Shown here: positions 392-30,973 of the stretch, in pieces
How positions within the stretch are numbered: the stretch's first letter is position 1
Layout of the letters: each line of letters opens with the position of its first letter
NCBI RefSeq assembly: GCF_041521385.1
Contig: NZ_CP168006.1
Span: 1 to 64,000 of the forward strand
Reading direction: 5' to 3'
Source: Alcaligenes faecalis
GTDB lineage: Bacteria; Pseudomonadota; Gammaproteobacteria; Burkholderiales; Burkholderiaceae_B
DNA: 64,000 nt
Notes under the pieces: generated by a model
Told to the model about the DNA's origin: nothing
What the model saw: the letters and a program-made list of their open reading frames with translations, nothing else
The model's database searches: none
Made by a program: the position numbers and the translations under genes

Positions 392-591
392 GGGGCTGCT
401 CCTTGACACTTTCACGCCGGTTGATAAAGACTCGCTTCTCTATCAAACCGGGTAACCTCTCCTTTGGCAAGGCCCGACTGTCAGATCAAATCGAAACTAC
501 TTCAAGTAATGCCCGTATTTGCGGCTGGTTTGGAGCACAGCGGCAAACTAGTCCGACAACATGGTTTGTTAGGCATTCTCCGTCTCGAACT

Positions 592-23702: not shown

Positions 23703-24821
23703 TCACACCAAACCCGAACCGGCATCCTGAAACTCGCCGGCTTCGCGCTGTGCTTCAGCTTCGGCCAGTTGCACACCGACCGACTGCAACAGGCTCCTTT
23801 CCTTCTCAGTTAATGTGTACCGTCGCCGAGAATGTCGTGGTTGCAGCTTGGCGGTAAAGACGTCGGCAGGCACCATGCCGAATACTTCGCGCACGAATTC
23901 CACACGCTGCTTGCCCTCTTCTGAAGCATGCTCCGTGATGAAGTCCAGCCGGGACAGCGCATTGATGTCTGGCTGCATGAGCCAACGTGAAAACCTGGCG
24001 ACCTCATTGAATACGCGACGGATAAAGCGAGTCATTTCTGTGATCGAGCGGCGCATTTGCTGATCGCTTAAGAGCGTCTTGCGACCCAGGGTCTTTTGCA
24101 AACGGATGAAGTAGTCATAATCAACAATCAAGCGGCTGATGCTGTATCCGTAGGGGGATCGGAATCCCAACTGCAAAGACTGCGGTTGGGCAGACTTCAG
24201 CACGGAATAGCTCAGCCCTCGTTGCTGCTGGCTGGAAAGCAAAGTCTCGGCAGCCTTGATCTCCTCTTGCAGCCGCTCATTCACTTCTTCCATGGATTGT
24301 TCATGACGCAGCAAAGACCAATCGGCATAGGGATTGTCATTGCCCGTCAACAGCCATAAGCTGCGCAACGAACTGGCGACACGGCGACCACCCACAATAG
24401 GTGCCACATCCGAGCCAGGCTCACGAACACGCCCCATAAACAGCCTGAATGCCTCCTTGGTATGCAGGGTCATCAGATCGTCTTCTGAATCGACCAGAGA
24501 GCCCAGGTCATCCATGGCAAAGAACTCGGCTGGTTTGACGTCAGGATCAGAACCCTTGCGCGTATGGAACTTGGTCTGCATACGAACCAGTTGATCTTTG
24601 CGATCTTCCAGTTCGATATACCGCTCGTAGAGCGGGTCATCTTCACGCATCGGCCCTGCCATATACGAGGCCAACAAGGCTTCTTCGCCGGTGATCGAAT
24701 ATCCATCGGCGAAGGGGGAATTCTCCTCCGTAGAGAACCCAATAAGAGACTTGGGTGCGGGAATGGCAGCGGGCTTATCGCTGGACTTGAGACGTGGCTG
24801 CTTATCAGTCGAAGTAGGCAT
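23703..24821 (-). CDS. PFL_4669 family (DUF1845) integrating conjugative element protein
   Basis: Protein of 372 aa. The diagnostic part is residues 115-175: DLMTLHTKEAFRLFMGRVRE, then IVGGRRVASSLRSLW and GNDNPYADWSLLRHEQ. This matches TIGR03761/DUF1845, an ICE-specific family of unknown biochemistry. A long helix with NERLQEEIKAAETLLSSQQQ follows, then a C-terminal helical domain. The family always lies in the replication block near ssb. The ATG has only a weak Shine-Dalgarno, so start choice is less certain; MAGPMREDD further in is unlikely because the N-terminal LIGFSTEENSPF is well formed. Confidence 0.85.
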   Translation of the reverse strand: MPTSTDKQPRLKSSDKPAAIPAPKSLIGFSTEENSPFADGYSITGEEALLASYMAGPMREDDPLYERYIELEDRKDQLVRMQTKFHTRKGSDPDVKPAEFFAMDDLGSLVDSEDDLMTLHTKEAFRLFMGRVREPGSDVAPIVGGRRVASSLRSLWLLTGNDNPYADWSLLRHEQSMEEVNERLQEEIKAAETLLSSQQQRGLSYSVLKSAQPQSLQLGFRSPYGYSISRLIVDYDYFIRLQKTLGRKTLLSDQQMRRSITEMTRFIRRVFNEVARFSRWLMQPDINALSRLDFITEHASEEGKQRVEFVREVFGMVPADVFTAKLQPRHSRRRYTLTEKERSLLQSVGVQLAEAEAQREAGEFQDAGSGLV

Positions 24822-24866
24822 AGGTAGTCACTGAGAAGAAAAATGAATAGGAGGTGACGGACATCA

Positions 24867-25256
24867 TCAGATCGTCGACCCCTTGAAATCTGCCAGCGGT
24901 GTTGCGTTGACAGCATCCAGAAACGGGAACGTATTGGCACGGAACCCAGGCAACATGCCGCTCAAAGGGTCTTGATTGAGGAATTCCAACAAGGCGTCAC
25001 TGTTGACTGTGATCAAGGTGCGGTAATTGGGCTGAGGCATCACGTTAATAAGCCCCATAGACTCCAATCTTTTTAATGATCGCTGCACCTGCTTGGGTGA
25101 CACTTGCCCACGCAATGAATCCAGGGCCATCTTGACCGCTGAAGTTTTTACTTGACGTTTGTCGCCATGATCTTGCAAGACGGTATGTAAAACTAAGGCA
25201 TCGCTGTATTTGCAGATGCGGTGCAAAAGATGAACAAACAACTGTTCGTTAGTCAT
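24867..25256 (-). CDS. Winged-helix DNA-binding protein next to iteron array
   Basis: Protein of 129 aa from the ATG at 25256, with GGAG eight bases upstream. It begins MTNEQLFVHLLHRICKYSDA. The segment TSAVKMALDSLRGQVSPKQVQRSLKRLESMGLI is a helix-turn-helix with a recognition helix, followed by a wing (YRTLITVN). The gene starts 29 bases after the tandem 36-bp repeats, so it is a good candidate for the protein that binds them, either as an autoregulator or as a replication accessory factor. No enzymatic motif is present. Confidence 0.65.
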   Translation of the reverse strand: MTNEQLFVHLLHRICKYSDALVLHTVLQDHGDKRQVKTSAVKMALDSLRGQVSPKQVQRSLKRLESMGLINVMPQPNYRTLITVNSDALLEFLNQDPLSGMLPGFRANTFPFLDAVNATPLADFKGSTI

Positions 25257-25284
25257 AGAAACGATCTCCTGATTCTGTTGATGG

Positions 25285-25414
25285 CATTGAGACAAAACGT
25301 CCTACCTCCCAACCGTTGGGCATTGAGACAAAACGTCTCACCTCCCACCCGGTGGGGATTGAGACAGAATGTCTTACCTCCCAACTGTTGGGGATTAAGA
25401 CAAAATGTCCTACC
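25285..25414. repeat. Iteron-like array: 36-bp tandem repeats, 3.6 copies
   Basis: Units begin at 25,285, 25,321, 25,357 and 25,393 (the last cut to 22 bp). Each carries GAGACAAAACGTCTC-type dyad symmetry followed by CTCCC and a second dyad (CCCAACCGTTGGG); differences between units often keep the second dyad intact (CCCACCCGGTGGG, CCCAACTGTTGGG). The array lies between the STY4528-like replication gene and the winged-helix gene. I read it as an origin or an operator array. Because 36 is a multiple of three, coding repeats are possible, but no gene uses it. Confidence 0.75.
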
Positions 25415-25439
25415 GAATGGGTACGAATGAGTCCGGCGG

Positions 25440-27080
25440 TCATGGCAGCTTCCTCATGGTCTGCACCTGCTGACGCAACTGAGCAAAGGCCTCCTCTTTC
25501 GTCATTGGAGGCAGAGTTGTCGTCAGGTTTGTATTGAGAGCTTTGATGTGCTCTTGGACGGCGTCTTGAGCATGTCGATTTTGTTCACGCTGGCTCGCAA
25601 TGCTTTGCGCATATGCCAGTTGCACACGACCGGATTCCAAACCGACGCGCAGCGAATGCAAGTAGCCAGGAGGATTTGCGATGTGCTTGCCTGGATTGCG
25701 CAACTGGCCTTCCAACTCATCAAGCAAACTCTGACGATGCTCTGGCTTGGCAATGGACAGCACCTTGCGCACAGCCTCATGCCATTGCTTGCCAAGCACG
25801 CTGGGCAAAGTGATATCAACCTCGTCGTTTTGAACATTCAAATCATCACGACGACACCCCGCTATCTCGGCCAGTGCTTTAGATTTATCCCCTGCAGACG
25901 CCGTGGTAATAGCGGGTCTTGTAGTTGTTTGAAGAAATATTGTTGTATTGTTGTTTCGCGGTTTGGGCAGCTTAGTTTCGCGTTTTGGGCAAGTTAGTTT
26001 TGCGGTTTGGGCAGCAAGTTTCGCGTTTTGGGCAACAGGGCCAGTTGTGAGATCGCTTGTTTTTGTGAGTTGTCCACAAGCTGCACCAGGACTCACTGAG
26101 GTCTGAGCAAAGAGACGTCCAGGATTCATGCTGGCGGGGTCACGCAACGCGTGCTGGACGGTTGCATTCGCCCGTGCTGCGCCAGCACTATCCAAATCAA
26201 ACAGTGGCCTTTGTGACTGTGTGCCTGCTCCAAATAATTTGCTTGATCGTGATGGCGCAGGCTTCTGCCCATTCACAGGAACAGGTTTGGATACCGATGT
26301 CAGTTTCGGTGCATCAGCAATGGGTGGCTGATCGGTAGACTCAGACTTGAGGGGGAACTGCTCCTGTCCATGTAATAAAGGGCATAAAGCCAGCAGGTTA
26401 ATGCGTATACGATTGCCTGCTTCCTGGAGTAGACCCATCTGTTTCAGGCGATCACGGGCATTGCGTTGTGTTTTGCTGGTCAAGCAGAGGGCGTTACGAA
26501 TAGCCTGCTGAGACAGCGTAAATTCACCCTCGATGCTTCGGCTGTAAGTGAGAACATGACGTTGCTGAATCAGCAGATACGATAGGTACAAGCCAGAGGC
26601 CACATTGCCCGCAATATCCGCCAAGGGCCGGTAGAAGCTCACATAGCGCTTCAGCAATGGTGCGAGCTGCGCCCAGCTTGCTTTCTGATCAACAACCGAG
26701 ATCCCCAGGCAAGAAGCGAGACGATCCAGGTTGATACGGTAATGGAGCTTGGCCGGTCTACCAGCCAGTTTTTCTTGGATCAGCGAATGTTGAACAAGTA
26801 AGAGACGAGCACTCTCCTGCTCTCGGGTACTCAATCCCGTTGCTTGCGTACACTGTTTTGCCGTCAGAAAGAACCAGCCGTCACGATTTTTATAGTGAAC
26901 GGCAGTATGCCGAGCCCAATAGAGCGCGTGCCCCAAAAACAAAGCAGCTTTGAAATTACCCAGCGTTTCAGCCAGGTTTGGGTAGTACTGCACAAACCCT
27001 TGGCTGGTGAGCAACTGCATAGCCTCATCAATTAGAGACGCCGTCGTTGTATCGGTGATTAATGCGGCACCCATAGCCAT
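25440..27080 (-). CDS. STY4528-like ICE/pathogenicity-island replication protein
   Basis: Protein of 546 aa from the ATG at 27080, one base after the upstream stop; an ATG two codons later is an alternative. It has two related winged-helix modules: residues about 35-120 (FKAALFLGHALYWARHTAVH, then FFLTAKQCTQATGLSTREQE) and about 155-240 (GNVASGLYLSYLLIQQRHVL, then TSKTQRNARDRLKQMGLLQE). A disordered Pro/Ser/Gln linker follows, then a C-terminal helical domain (KQWHEAVRKVLSIAKPEHRQ). This fits the STY4528 family of SPI-7-type ICEs, presumed replication initiators. The iteron-like array lies directly downstream of its 3' end. Confidence 0.8.
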   Translation of the reverse strand: MAMGAALITDTTTASLIDEAMQLLTSQGFVQYYPNLAETLGNFKAALFLGHALYWARHTAVHYKNRDGWFFLTAKQCTQATGLSTREQESARLLLVQHSLIQEKLAGRPAKLHYRINLDRLASCLGISVVDQKASWAQLAPLLKRYVSFYRPLADIAGNVASGLYLSYLLIQQRHVLTYSRSIEGEFTLSQQAIRNALCLTSKTQRNARDRLKQMGLLQEAGNRIRINLLALCPLLHGQEQFPLKSESTDQPPIADAPKLTSVSKPVPVNGQKPAPSRSSKLFGAGTQSQRPLFDLDSAGAARANATVQHALRDPASMNPGRLFAQTSVSPGAACGQLTKTSDLTTGPVAQNAKLAAQTAKLTCPKRETKLPKPRNNNTTIFLQTTTRPAITTASAGDKSKALAEIAGCRRDDLNVQNDEVDITLPSVLGKQWHEAVRKVLSIAKPEHRQSLLDELEGQLRNPGKHIANPPGYLHSLRVGLESGRVQLAYAQSIASQREQNRHAQDAVQEHIKALNTNLTTTLPPMTKEEAFAQLRQQVQTMRKLP

Positions 27081-27081
27081 C

Positions 27082-27678
27082 TCATCCGTAGCGCTTGGAA
27101 AGAACGGGTTGTGACGACGATGAGCCTTGTTGTTGATGAACCTCTTCGAGCGAGTTAGCCAATGAAGCGGATGCTTGGAGAATGGCATCCGCGACAACAT
27201 TCAGATGCAAGCGGTATTCCGGTACACGGCCCGGCCCCGACTGTTCACTTAACATGCCCAATGCGATCAAATCTCGTCGGCATGTCCGCTGCTGAGAGGC
27301 AGTAATCCCGGTGACCTGATGACATTGAGTCGCCGATAGGCGAAACACATAATCATCCTCCTGGAACTCCTCGGGCATTGCTTGAGCAACCCGTTCCAGC
27401 ACAGACGAAAGCCATAATCCCGTGATGACATTGCCCGTGATATCGACATATAGGCGATGGAAGCTGATTGGCGTTTGCCCCATCAAATTCAACAGCGCCG
27501 CCTGCGCTAAAAAGTCTTCCCTTGGTGCGTCTTTATGATTCTGGGAGCCATCGGCATGAGAGGACGGTAAGGCCCACCCTCCCTGTGTCTGGCCATCACA
27601 ATCACGTTCTGACGGAGGCAGAGTCGAAGGACGCGGCGCAGTTGTAGAAGTGCTTGGCATAGTCATAATTTCGTCCAT
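27082..27678 (-). CDS. Winged-helix protein paralogous to the STY4528-like modules
   Basis: Protein of 198 aa. After a disordered N-terminus of about 55 residues comes GNVITGLWLSSVLERVAQAM, FRLSATQCHQVTGITASQQR and CRRDLIALGMLSEQ, the same pattern as both modules of the next gene (GNV-x-x-GL-x-LS, then a helix-turn-helix with QR-x-x-R). It is therefore a third copy of the module, as a separate protein. Its stop overlaps the ribosome binding region of the STY4528-like gene by design (TGAGATG), so the two are co-translated. It may form a mixed complex on the origin; this is inference. Confidence 0.65.
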   Translation of the reverse strand: MDEIMTMPSTSTTAPRPSTLPPSERDCDGQTQGGWALPSSHADGSQNHKDAPREDFLAQAALLNLMGQTPISFHRLYVDITGNVITGLWLSSVLERVAQAMPEEFQEDDYVFRLSATQCHQVTGITASQQRTCRRDLIALGMLSEQSGPGRVPEYRLHLNVVADAILQASASLANSLEEVHQQQGSSSSQPVLSKRYG

Positions 27679-27684
27679 GTGGCT

Positions 27685-28290
27685 TTATCCTTGCAGTGGT
27701 GGTGTCGTCGGTTTTATTTCCAAACCAAGCTCATCATCTTCAGCAAACTCGACAATGGTTTGCTGGAGGACACTGATTCGCAGCTCAGGAAACTGTTGGT
27801 GTAAGGCGTAGATTCGGTCTCGGCAGGGTTGCTCAGACATCGATTGCTGAATATCGAACCAGGCTCGATGGATGGCATCACGCACAGCGACTGGAGGCAG
27901 GGCCGTACGGCCGCCAGGCTCCCCTCCCGGCCTGAGCTGTGCGCGCAAGTCCCGGTACTCCTCGTGGGACAGCTTGAAATACGCACACACCATCCGACGC
28001 GAAGCGCCATGAATCACAAAGTATTCGCGTAACTTGGCGTGCTCACGCCGCATATCAAGCAGATGTAGCCCCTTGCTGATGACTTGTTCAGACAGTGAGA
28101 ACCACATTTCCTGCGGAGAGTTGGCCAGATTCGTGATGTCCCGAGTGGTTCGGTAACGCAAATCATCGAGAAACTCGGGTGAGTAGCCCGCACGCAGTAG
28201 AGAGTCCATGTGACCACCATCGATTTGCTCAATAATGTGGGCCAGCAACATGCGCCGTAGAACAGGACATTGAATGGGAATTTTGTTCAT
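27685..28290 (-). CDS. DUF2857 family ICE protein
   Basis: Protein of 201 aa whose ATG overlaps the parB stop (ATGA), with GAGGAG upstream. It begins MNKIPIQCPVLRRMLLAHII. DUF2857 features are visible: YSPEFLDDLRYRTTRDITNL, the helix-turn-helix-like MVCAYFKLSHEEYRDLRAQL, and a C-terminal ELRISVLQQTIVEFAEDDEL. The family lies between parB and the replication genes in PFGI-1/SPI-7-type ICEs and in related elements is linked to transcriptional control of the excision state. A regulatory role here is inferred from family and position. Confidence 0.82.
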   Translation of the reverse strand: MNKIPIQCPVLRRMLLAHIIEQIDGGHMDSLLRAGYSPEFLDDLRYRTTRDITNLANSPQEMWFSLSEQVISKGLHLLDMRREHAKLREYFVIHGASRRMVCAYFKLSHEEYRDLRAQLRPGGEPGGRTALPPVAVRDAIHRAWFDIQQSMSEQPCRDRIYALHQQFPELRISVLQQTIVEFAEDDELGLEIKPTTPPLQG

Positions 28291-30020
28291 GAAATCTCCT
28301 CCGTCACATCCGGCGTGAACAAGGACATAAACCCGCCCAGTTGACGCTCTGGGTAACGAGTCCGAACCCGTTCCATTTCTGAGAGCAGACGTGTGACCAA
28401 CGGCCCCAATTGCTCATGCCGCAATACCAGGCTCACGTTTTGGAGCGAGACATGGTCAAATGCCTCGCCCAGTAACTCCTGTGCTCCTTCCTGAAACTGT
28501 TCCTCGCCCTGCTCCCAAAGCTGTTTCCAAGCAATGGTGAAGCCATCGGCTTCGTGTGGGATGAGCTGCGTAAATCGACGATCAAGCTGACCGGTGAGAC
28601 TGACCAGGATTTTCCACAGGGCTCTGCGGTAAATGACCAATTCTGGTTCCAGCTCAATCCCATCCACATACCCAATACCTTGTGAAGGAAAGTCCAGGTA
28701 AAAGCCAAAGATGTGGTGTGGCTGATCGCTTTTAAAAAGCACATCCGACATGTCGATCAAGCTCTGAAACTCGCCTAACACCGTAAATATCGGCTGTGGA
28801 TCGAACCCTTCCCCCCCTCCGCTCAAGACCACGTTCTGGGAGACCGATGGGGAAGCTGGAAGAAAAGCACCGCCAGAACTATCGGGCTTACTCTTAGGCG
28901 TAGGTACACTGGCCAACATTCGACCGAGTGGAGGCTGAATAGGTGGTTGAATTGCTAGCGGCTTGGGGTCCACTGGCGCCATAGGAGTGGCTTCGATCAG
29001 CCTCAGGGTCTCAACCTCCAGGCGCGGGTTCGCCTCTAGAGCCTGGGCCATGGCCAGCAGTTTCTCAGGGGTCACACCCAAAGTTTCAGCGATGGCTACG
29101 TGGACCTCATCAAGCAACTGCGAGACGTCTAAAACCTGCTGAGCACTCTGATTTGCCGTGACAGATTGTTGACTCATCACAGCGGCGTACTTGTGCAGGA
29201 TTGTCTGCAGCGCAGTTTCAGCGACTGCTTGCTGGCCAAATTTGTCAGCTAGTTTTAGCCACTGTGAGATCTGCGGCTTAATGGTCTGATTCACATCGCG
29301 TGCTTGCAACCAACGACCGATCGGGGCCAGATACTCAACCGCAAAAAGGAAGTTTTGCAGCATGCTCATGCCGAAATTCAGGCCGCTGGCCTGACGCAAC
29401 TCCCGGTTCAATTCCGTGGTTGAAAGCGATTTGCCCGATTCTTTCTCAAAATGCTCCTTAAACGACAGCACTCCCTGGGCTTTCTCCCAGAACGAAATCT
29501 CGCCACGCTGCTCGTTTTCCGCCAGGTGCGCCGCAATGGTCGGCGCGTCCCCTTTCCAGACCTTGACGATGACCGTCAGCCGCGCAAAGCGTTGGTCACC
29601 CTCTTCGTACAGCTCTCTCGCAATACGCAGCCGTGTATTCCCGCCACCGTAGACCATATAACGCGGCTGACCAGGACGTCTGGTAACGCTGATATGGTTC
29701 AGTATCCCATTGGCCCGAATCGACGCCTTGATCTCGTCATAGAGTGGGTTTATTTCGGTACGCGGGTCAAATTCGTACCGATCAATATCAGTGACTGCCA
29801 GATTTGAAACACTCCCATCCACCACATCCATGGGTGTCATCGCACCCATAGCATTCAACGGTGGCGGCGTGCCCATCAGGGAGCGTTTGGCGATGTCTTC
29901 GTAATTCGATTTTTTTGAGGACACGGGACTGGTCTCTCTTAATGTTGAGCTCAACTCAGCGTTCATGCGCAACTGCGCGGCACGCTGACTGGCGGTCAGC
30001 AATTCCGGAGTTTTAGACAT
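28287..30020 (-). CDS. parB: ParB family protein, ICE PFGI-1 class
   Basis: Protein of 577 aa, much longer than chromosomal ParB (about 300 aa), as expected for TIGR03764. The CTPase/ParB-Srx fold starts near residue 75: LAVTDIDRYEFDPRTEINP, then ASIRANGILNHISVT, YMVYGGGNTRLRIARELY (GxxRxxA-like motif) and AAHLAENEQRGEISFWEKAQ. The helix-turn-helix part follows (residues 180-260). A disordered linker and a C-terminal domain of about 170 residues (QSLIDMSDVLFKSDQPHHIF) are specific to this class. It pairs with parA eight bases upstream to partition or stabilise the excised element. Confidence 0.9.
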   Translation of the reverse strand: MSKTPELLTASQRAAQLRMNAELSSTLRETSPVSSKKSNYEDIAKRSLMGTPPPLNAMGAMTPMDVVDGSVSNLAVTDIDRYEFDPRTEINPLYDEIKASIRANGILNHISVTRRPGQPRYMVYGGGNTRLRIARELYEEGDQRFARLTVIVKVWKGDAPTIAAHLAENEQRGEISFWEKAQGVLSFKEHFEKESGKSLSTTELNRELRQASGLNFGMSMLQNFLFAVEYLAPIGRWLQARDVNQTIKPQISQWLKLADKFGQQAVAETALQTILHKYAAVMSQQSVTANQSAQQVLDVSQLLDEVHVAIAETLGVTPEKLLAMAQALEANPRLEVETLRLIEATPMAPVDPKPLAIQPPIQPPLGRMLASVPTPKSKPDSSGGAFLPASPSVSQNVVLSGGGEGFDPQPIFTVLGEFQSLIDMSDVLFKSDQPHHIFGFYLDFPSQGIGYVDGIELEPELVIYRRALWKILVSLTGQLDRRFTQLIPHEADGFTIAWKQLWEQGEEQFQEGAQELLGEAFDHVSLQNVSLVLRHEQLGPLVTRLLSEMERVRTRYPERQLGGFMSLFTPDVTEEIS

Positions 30021-30028
30021 GGCGCGCT

Positions 30029-30973
30029 CTACGAGTTAGTCGTGAGCGGGCTGTCTGGCTCGTCTGACGCGGAGATAGGGACATGCAATGCCGCTAGCGC
30101 GGGAGCTAACTCATTGCGGTGATTGGGAGTGAATTTATTGCTCAGATTGGGGATCAATTCCCACAGCAAACTGTGCATGTGATCGCCCGCTCTGACCGGA
30201 TCAATCCAGTGAGCAGGGACTTGGGCGGTAGCGGCTTTTTTGTAGGCGACCGCTTGGGGAATCTGGGTGGCCAGCACGGTCACACGCCCGCTCATTTCAA
30301 TGAACTGATTGCGGATTAGGCTGGACATGGTGCGACTGTCGACCGTGTTCTCGCTACGGTTAATCACGCACTGGATTGCGGGCACTTTGTAGCCCAGGTT
30401 GGAGGCAGATTCGTGGCGGGCGACCAGTTTGATCGTACCGTCAACAAACTCACGGGCCGACAAAACATCAGGGGCTACAGGAGCGAGAAGCACATCCGCC
30501 GCATTGACGGCGGCGTCTTGTAAGTGGCCCACTGCCCCTTGGGTATCGATGATGCAGACGTCGTACTGAGCACGGATATCCGGGTTACTCAGGGCCATCC
30601 GAATACGTACCAGGCGATCAAGCTGATTGGACAACCAGATTTGAAGGGGGCTGTCGTCACGCTGAGTGTCGGAGCAAACAATATGCAAGAAACCGCCCTG
30701 CACATTCAAACTTGAACGGTCGCCCTCGAATTCGGCAGGTGGAAATTCGACGTGACTAATGCAGTCCGTGGTGAGTGCTCCAGACATCACCATTTGCGTT
30801 AAGCCATAAGGGGCTTGATGGGCAAGTTTGTAATAGCGAGTCAGAGATGGCTGAATATCCGCATCAATTAAAAGAACGCGATATCCGAAATCAGCAAGCA
30901 ATCCACCTAAATTGGCAGTTAATGTGGTTTTGCCAACACCACCTTTAGTGGCAACAGTTGTGAACGTAAGCAT
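30029..30973 (-). CDS. parA: ParA family partition ATPase of the ICE
   Basis: Protein of 314 aa starting MLTFTTVATKGGVGKTTLTA, holding the deviant Walker A (KGGVGKTT) at residues 10-17. Motif A' LLIDADIQPSLTRYY and Walker B CIIDTQGAVGHLQD follow. The C-terminal 40 residues are acidic and disordered. In relatives a dnaB-type helicase gene lies between parA and parB; here only eight bases separate them, so dnaB is missing. parA is the outermost backbone gene at this end, the usual position in the SPI-7/PAPI-1 group, and supports stability of the excised circle. Confidence 0.9.
   Translation of the reverse strand: MLTFTTVATKGGVGKTTLTANLGGLLADFGYRVLLIDADIQPSLTRYYKLAHQAPYGLTQMVMSGALTTDCISHVEFPPAEFEGDRSSLNVQGGFLHIVCSDTQRDDSPLQIWLSNQLDRLVRIRMALSNPDIRAQYDVCIIDTQGAVGHLQDAAVNAADVLLAPVAPDVLSAREFVDGTIKLVARHESASNLGYKVPAIQCVINRSENTVDSRTMSSLIRNQFIEMSGRVTVLATQIPQAVAYKKAATAQVPAHWIDPVRAGDHMHSLLWELIPNLSNKFTPNHRNELAPALAALHVPISASDEPDSPLTTNS

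Follow-up and report, generated by a model that had tools for sequence, protein, structure and literature searches.

The gap downstream of the gene for an O-like replication initiator, in the stretch of Alcaligenes faecalis DNA considered here (the window, 64,000 nucleotides in full), holds a tandem array of 36-bp units with two dyads each at 25283..25414, no strand being assigned to it, and this array is probably a centromere-like partition site bound by the ParB protein of the ICE in which it lies. The array is real and, as its counterparts in related elements show, general. From the comparison of sequences we infer its binding by ParB, the validity of this reading in Alcaligenes and the role in segregation: ParB dimers would read the palindromes through their helix-turn-helix (HTH), ParA would act on the complex of ParB with the array, and the excised, replicating circle of the ICE would thereby be kept or segregated. 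On balance, centromere appears to be the better name for the array, with an operator ranking next and oriV being a reasonable but second-best name. As a better position for the oriV we propose the interior of the O-like initiator gene, at 25920-26078, about 0.5 kb from the array.

Scanning the 64-kb window with TRF returned the interval as a repeat of period 36 with 3.7 copies, 85% matches, no indels and a score of 180, the top score of six rows, and a separate repeat search found the same register, with spacings of 36 and 36. This confirms the three full and one partial units, each with two dyads, of the original prediction. The four dyads of the first kind (A) are centred at 25296, 25332, 25368 and 25404, the three of the second kind (B) at 25314, 25350 and 25386; the two kinds alternate, and every step between neighbouring centres measures 18 bp. 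With up to three mismatches allowed, the A pattern has four matches in the window, three of them inside the array, against 1.13 expected, while the B pattern by itself is not rare (eight matches vs. 6.6 expected). At gathering thresholds Rfam gives no match at the array; far from it, at window positions 393-585, there is a match to psRNA2 (81.2 bits).

The genes around the array lie on the minus strand in the order parA (30029..30973), parB (28287..30020), a DUF2857 gene (27685..28290), a gene for a 198-aa protein with a weak O-like match (27082..27678), the gene for the 586-aa O-like initiator (25440..27200; PHROG 9773, "replication initiation O-like", E 5.7e-25), the array, a gene for a 129-aa winged-helix-type protein with weak PHROG matches only (24867..25256), a PFL_4669/AcaB-family gene (23703..24821), a gene for a 199-aa protein and ssb. 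Annotation and profile results thus agree with the setting first proposed, between a winged-helix gene and an STY4528-like replication gene. A relative of the initiator with 96% identity is found in A. faecalis AU14. The ParB-family protein, the proposed binder of the array, scores above the TIGR03764 cut-off; its residues ~199-240, encoded at 29301..29426 on the minus strand, align with the HTH of E. coli ParB, and no PDB chain matched the protein by sequence. As in ParABS systems, ParA and ParB are encoded in cis with the array, and as in sopC of F, the array is made of tandem units each with an inverted repeat. The likeness to the sopC (parS-F)/SopA/SopB system extends to both features: sopC is described in the available part of PMC9178275 as a set of twelve repeats of 43 bp, in each of which a ParB dimer binds a 16-bp inverted repeat. 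The units here differ in measuring 36 bp and, in betaproteobacteria, in interleaving two dyads; also unlike F sopC, the ParB is of the TIGR03764 type and the array lies 2.9 kb from parB, with the DUF2857, 198-aa and initiator genes in between.

The relatives of the initiator gene compared here came from E. coli records, plasmids, named contigs and species genomes. In 23 loci, other betaproteobacteria included, the gap after the O-like gene has A and B dyads in alternation; of these loci, the window, L002 and L003 are close kin, as are L036 and L079. When dyads were picked without guidance inside the array spans of these 23 loci, 79 of 87 successive pairs stood exactly 18 bp apart, the exceptions falling in L003 (two), L039 (five) and L047 (one); L031 and L033, which have a degenerate gap, were excluded from the lattice counts. 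The position of the array is conserved, between the upstream genes parA-parB-DUF2857-initiator and the PFL_4669 gene downstream, and the sequences of the arms vary among relatives in paired fashion while the 18/36-bp geometry holds; the expectation that an array would be found at the same place in related ICEs was therefore borne out for both place and geometry. Arms also vary inside the single arrays of L002 and L027. The gaps of L036 and L079 are near-identical, their B-dyad centres differing by a palindrome-preserving change of three bases (ACGGT to AGCCT). In L048 and L049 the O-like gene overlaps the next small gene, leaving no gap and no array, with a linker that is built differently. 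Viral contigs yielded one remote locus only.

Beyond the lattice set, a dyad with at least 7 of 8 pairs lies within 59 positions after the stop codon of the O-like or STY4528 gene in 25 of 53 loci, some of them close kin, vs. 8.1% of random windows from the same genes. E. coli elements of the SPI-7 type have an exact 36-bp series of palindromes in the gap in eight of the first ten records (L117-L123 and L125), with palindromes that differ from those of the window; L124 has single dyads only and L126 has no array in its gap. No clear counterpart of the A dyad was seen by eye in the E. coli arrays. In the Citrobacter plasmid L094 there are two dyads, at a distance of 36 bp from each other, and four of 20 class-level loci (L100, L104, L107 and L109) use other steps, of 33, 37 or 47-50 bp. 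Among the plasmids L091, L092, L095 and L096 no such array was found, including in the gap of L092, the gap of L095 having one perfect dyad. In the gap of L118, the array has 19 units of 36 bp with two arm types, and four units, counted by eye, are hybrids with mismatched halves that look as if they were products of unequal exchange. Other sets of palindromes, such as TGTGACCAGTGGTCACA, occupy the same gap in L062, L065 and L069, from genomes of 2.5-2.6 Mb; their arms differ and no 36-bp rule is seen by eye. Four loci, L045, L048, L049 and the plasmid L091, encode ParB and have no array in the stretch examined, which lowers the case for membership in the sopC type without settling it; their ParB site may possibly lie elsewhere or have another form.

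Which protein reads the array? The arms of the E. coli arrays follow the DNA-reading helix of ParB, and therefore point to a partition site. The comparison covered 14 elements, 13 from E. coli plus one Citrobacter plasmid, L139 being left out for sharing the ParB accession of L094; the predictors were confined to the ParB HTH, the rest of ParB, STY4528 and DUF2857. Distances between arms follow those of the 40-aa HTH (r 0.52, p 0.001; partial r 0.52, Mantel p 0.0004), whereas the rest of ParB, STY4528 and DUF2857 (p 0.11 each) carry no partial signal; an earlier run with ten elements had given a partial Mantel p of 0.012 for the HTH. Among the 12 closer elements, ParB windows covering residues 121-220 have r of 0.33-0.54 and the remaining windows -0.17 to 0.06. 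The strongest evidence is provided by what appear to be recombinational swaps, in which the array sides with the helix against the rest of ParB. The ParB of L122 is 95% like that of L118 overall, but its HTH is nearer to L123 (86% vs. 80%), and its arms, TGGTGGC, are the same as in L123; conversely, the ParB of L119 is nearer to L123 overall (82% vs. 71%), but its HTH is nearer to L118 (87% vs. 80%), and its arms are of the L118 type, TGTTGGC. Taken together, the arms of the E. coli arrays come in the types TGTTGSC, TGGTGGC and TGYTGCC. L119, L138 and L140 share an identical DUF2857 accession, yet their helices and arms differ in step. Five elements, fetched after the pattern had been noticed and picked among 60 listed of 146 records, have the arm type expected from the helix in five of five cases as judged by eye, one of them being L139, with the ParB accession of L094. 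In L136-L140 the 7-base core of the arm also occurs 4-9 times outside the gap per 17-kb stretch.

In the lineage of the window the picture is less sharp. Among 17 betaproteobacterial elements, array distances correlate best with ParB for both kinds of dyad, at 0.45 for the B dyads and at 0.38 for the A dyads, vs. 0.36 for the A dyads with the 129-aa protein and AcaB; the betaproteobacterial correlation peaks at ParB residues 211-270. The B-dyad result, partial on the winged-helix protein, has p 0.0005, and p 0.14 once the window, L026 and L046 are dropped, so that it hangs on a few divergent elements, and in a run with seven predictors the unique B-dyad signal falls in ParB outside the HTH. 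Since this test is fragile, the step from the E. coli elements to the window is one of analogy: for Alcaligenes, the centromere reading draws on synteny, geometry and the E. coli arrays. ParB alone leaves the A dyads unexplained.

The reading of the array as an operator, by which the 129-aa winged-helix protein and/or the PFL_4669/AcaB-family regulator would bind it and control the operon just downstream, is unlikely, if the best placed of the alternatives. The start codon of the 129-aa gene lies 40 bp from the centre of the last A dyad, AcaB is described as a transcription activator in IncC plasmids (PMC10954446, in the part available), and the two-dyad 18-bp lattice is present in 22 of the 27 loci whose O-like gene is followed downstream by a match to the 129-aa family, the near-identical L082-L085 not being counted among these; the five loci of this family that have no lattice are L031, L033, L045, L048 and L049, the last two with doubtful matches. 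Strict coupling of the array to the 129-aa gene is nevertheless broken: L045 has the gene but no array, the reverse is true of L054, whose 36-bp array is of single dyads, and E. coli arrays reach 27 counted dyads with no gene named winged-helix, the genes between STY4528 and PFL_4669 in these elements being annotated, by name only, as hypothetical, MipA/OmpV or ClbS. In the seven-predictor run, with the six other predictors held, A-dyad distances did follow residues 30-90 of the 129-aa protein (partial r 0.39, p 0.004), but the link was gone when whole proteins and narrower arms were used (partial r 0.07, p 0.25), and the assignment of the A dyad to this protein was set aside as not robust on re-test. 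Nor was any promoter-like site found in 24850-26100.

Turning to replication, the O-like gene itself contains the candidate origin. Four iterons of ~22 bp, in frames 2, 2, 0 and 1, lie at 25953..26034 (minus strand) as the proposed oriV iterons, and the last overlaps an AT-rich stretch at 25920..25964 (minus strand), the proposed unwinding region, with a GC of 0.311 vs. 0.518 for the whole gene; a weak DnaA-box-like site, TTGTCCACA, lies at 26070..26078 on the plus strand, 44 nt upstream of the first iteron, such sites being present within 50 nt upstream of the iterons in only 7 of 35 loci. Helically phased iterons within an O-like gene and an adjoining AT-rich stretch, as found at 25920-26078, characterise lambda-type origins; in the available part of PMC7466680, lambda ori is likewise described with iterons and an AT-rich stretch in the middle of gene O. 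The O-like gene product would open the iterons and AT-rich stretch as lambda O opens ori-lambda. The candidate differs from lambda ori in its mostly 22-23-bp spacing, its 2-6 copies, its location in an ICE and iterons that vary with lineage.

This layout is kept in many relatives from the betaproteobacteria and in some from other proteobacteria, which have 2-6 short direct repeats in the middle to third quarter of the O-like gene. Of 42 genes, 35 have a repeat score above that of every one of six shuffles with synonymous codons; the seven others are L004, L005, L040, L047, L048, L050 and L058, and L008 and L090 have in-gene repeats of another kind. In 35 loci chosen for clear iterons, with positions partly adjusted by hand (for example in L043) and loci that had no clear iterons left out, a spacing of 22 or 23 bp predominates (63 of 88), and in 71 of the 88 cases the spacing is not a multiple of three; iterons that shift the reading frame must be maintained at the level of DNA. 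A 45-bp stretch near the last iteron belongs to the 1.3% richest in AT in 34 of these 35 genes, a result which the choice of the best offset favours. The STY4528 genes of L094 and of E. coli L117-L125 have in-gene repeats that are themselves palindromes (GTTCGGAAACCGAAC and the like), mostly with 44/45-bp spacing, in contrast to the 22-23 bp seen in betaproteobacteria.

That the gap array itself would be the oriV, an iteron origin bound by the O-like/STY4528 initiator, is improbable on this evidence. Precedent exists in the literature, at least in the parts available: the putative oriV of PFGI-1, with palindromic repeats, sits immediately upstream of PFL_4669 (PMC2647930), the replication module of ICEHin1056 is also credited with a putative oriV (PMC2258188), and the A dyads are shaped like the iterons of lambda, described as imperfect inverted repeats of 19 bp (PMC7466680). 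The putative oriV of PFGI-1/pKLC102 and ICEHin1056 occupies the same gap, with palindromic direct repeats; those of PFGI-1, read as an origin, measure 46 bp with a 21-bp inverted repeat (PMC2647930), vs. the 36-bp units here. The same text, in its available part, has PFGI-1 encoding no Rep protein, and the words parS and centromere have counts of 0 in it. The array has no AT-rich stretch beside it (its GC is 0.508, and the lowest 45-mer in the gap has 0.40), and in the E. coli and Citrobacter elements the arms do not follow STY4528. Shared recognition of the array and the in-gene iterons, tried as a possibility, was rejected, there being no excess of likeness within the same element (p 0.85 for 21 loci, p 0.82 for the 15 less related). 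Moreover, L055, L056, L059, L061 and L063 have in-gene iterons and no lattice seen in their gaps, where the best dyad near the stop has 4-6 of 8 pairs. Hence, of the earlier suggestion that the array is an oriV or operator, the placing in a replication and maintenance module stands, but as oriV the array lacks an AT-rich stretch and likeness to iterons, and the gene next to it offers a better candidate.

The way in which the arms vary bears on the two remaining alternatives. In the 41 distinct B dyads, Watson-Crick pairs fill 160 of the 164 cells at positions 3-6, with neither G:T nor A:C among the rest, and position 4 varies nevertheless (C:G in 20, T:A in 20); the A arms are looser, with 207 of 240 cells at positions 3-6 paired, 5 G:T and 6 A:C. 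When right arms were shuffled between dyads within each array and pairing was recounted, real arms paired better, at A positions 3-6 (242 observed vs. a mean of 220.3, p 0.0002) and at B positions 1-6 (206 vs. 192.5, p 0.0006), and therefore both halves of a dyad change together; flanking positions 7-9 had no such excess (p 0.98 and 0.94). For L039, the permutation and distance tests used the first seven dyads only. The proposal that changes between units keep dyad symmetry consequently holds across related arrays, the A dyads of the window alone being uninformative (14 observed, 14.0 expected). Covarying arms would also be expected if the mRNA formed hairpins between the initiator gene and its downstream neighbour, both strands fold better than shuffled sequences do (z of -2.6 for the sense and -3.5 for the antisense strand), and the failure to find an internal promoter suits this possibility too. 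Yet RNA helices usually tolerate G:U, and the near absence of wobble pairs in B favours either a dimer reading duplex DNA or the correction of palindromes over an RNA helix; of the two strands the antisense one folds better, and hairpins do not require an exact 18-bp spacing. With both strands folded and wobble pairs counted, the RNA reading was disfavoured, and we regard it as very improbable. Least credible of all is mutation with no function, template switching perfecting the palindromes and unequal crossing-over keeping the period. The range from single dyads to 27 and the close likeness of units within arrays would fit it, but mutation alone would not be expected to yield the place, the 18/36-bp geometry or the link with the ParB helix.

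In wider terms, these results bear on how ICEs of the PFGI-1/SPI-7/ICEclc type replicate and persist after excision. ICEclc, from the related superfamily, is described as replicating after excision in dependence on the relaxase TraI and oriT1 (PMC6561031, in its available part), unlike what is proposed here, and the word oriV is absent from that text. In the available parts of published accounts no binding site is named for the ParB of these ICEs, and none was noticed among the matches listed in our survey of mostly open-access literature, the pKLC102 paper lying outside its scope. Tentatively, the ICE superfamily may have a bipartite maintenance core: the initiator gene would contain a lambda-type origin, and just downstream would lie a centromere phased at 18/36 bp, the two dyads of which would in betaproteobacteria be read one by ParB and the other by the winged-helix protein of the adjacent gene. 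If so, two interleaved dyads would join partition to control of the replication operon, and stretches published as putative oriV would be origin plus centromere, which is how we read the stretch of PFGI-1 from its published description. Palindrome arrays beside initiator genes should consequently not be named oriV from their repeats alone. With a candidate initiator, an in-gene origin and a separate centromere, each part of this proposed core becomes testable through small, separable deletions.
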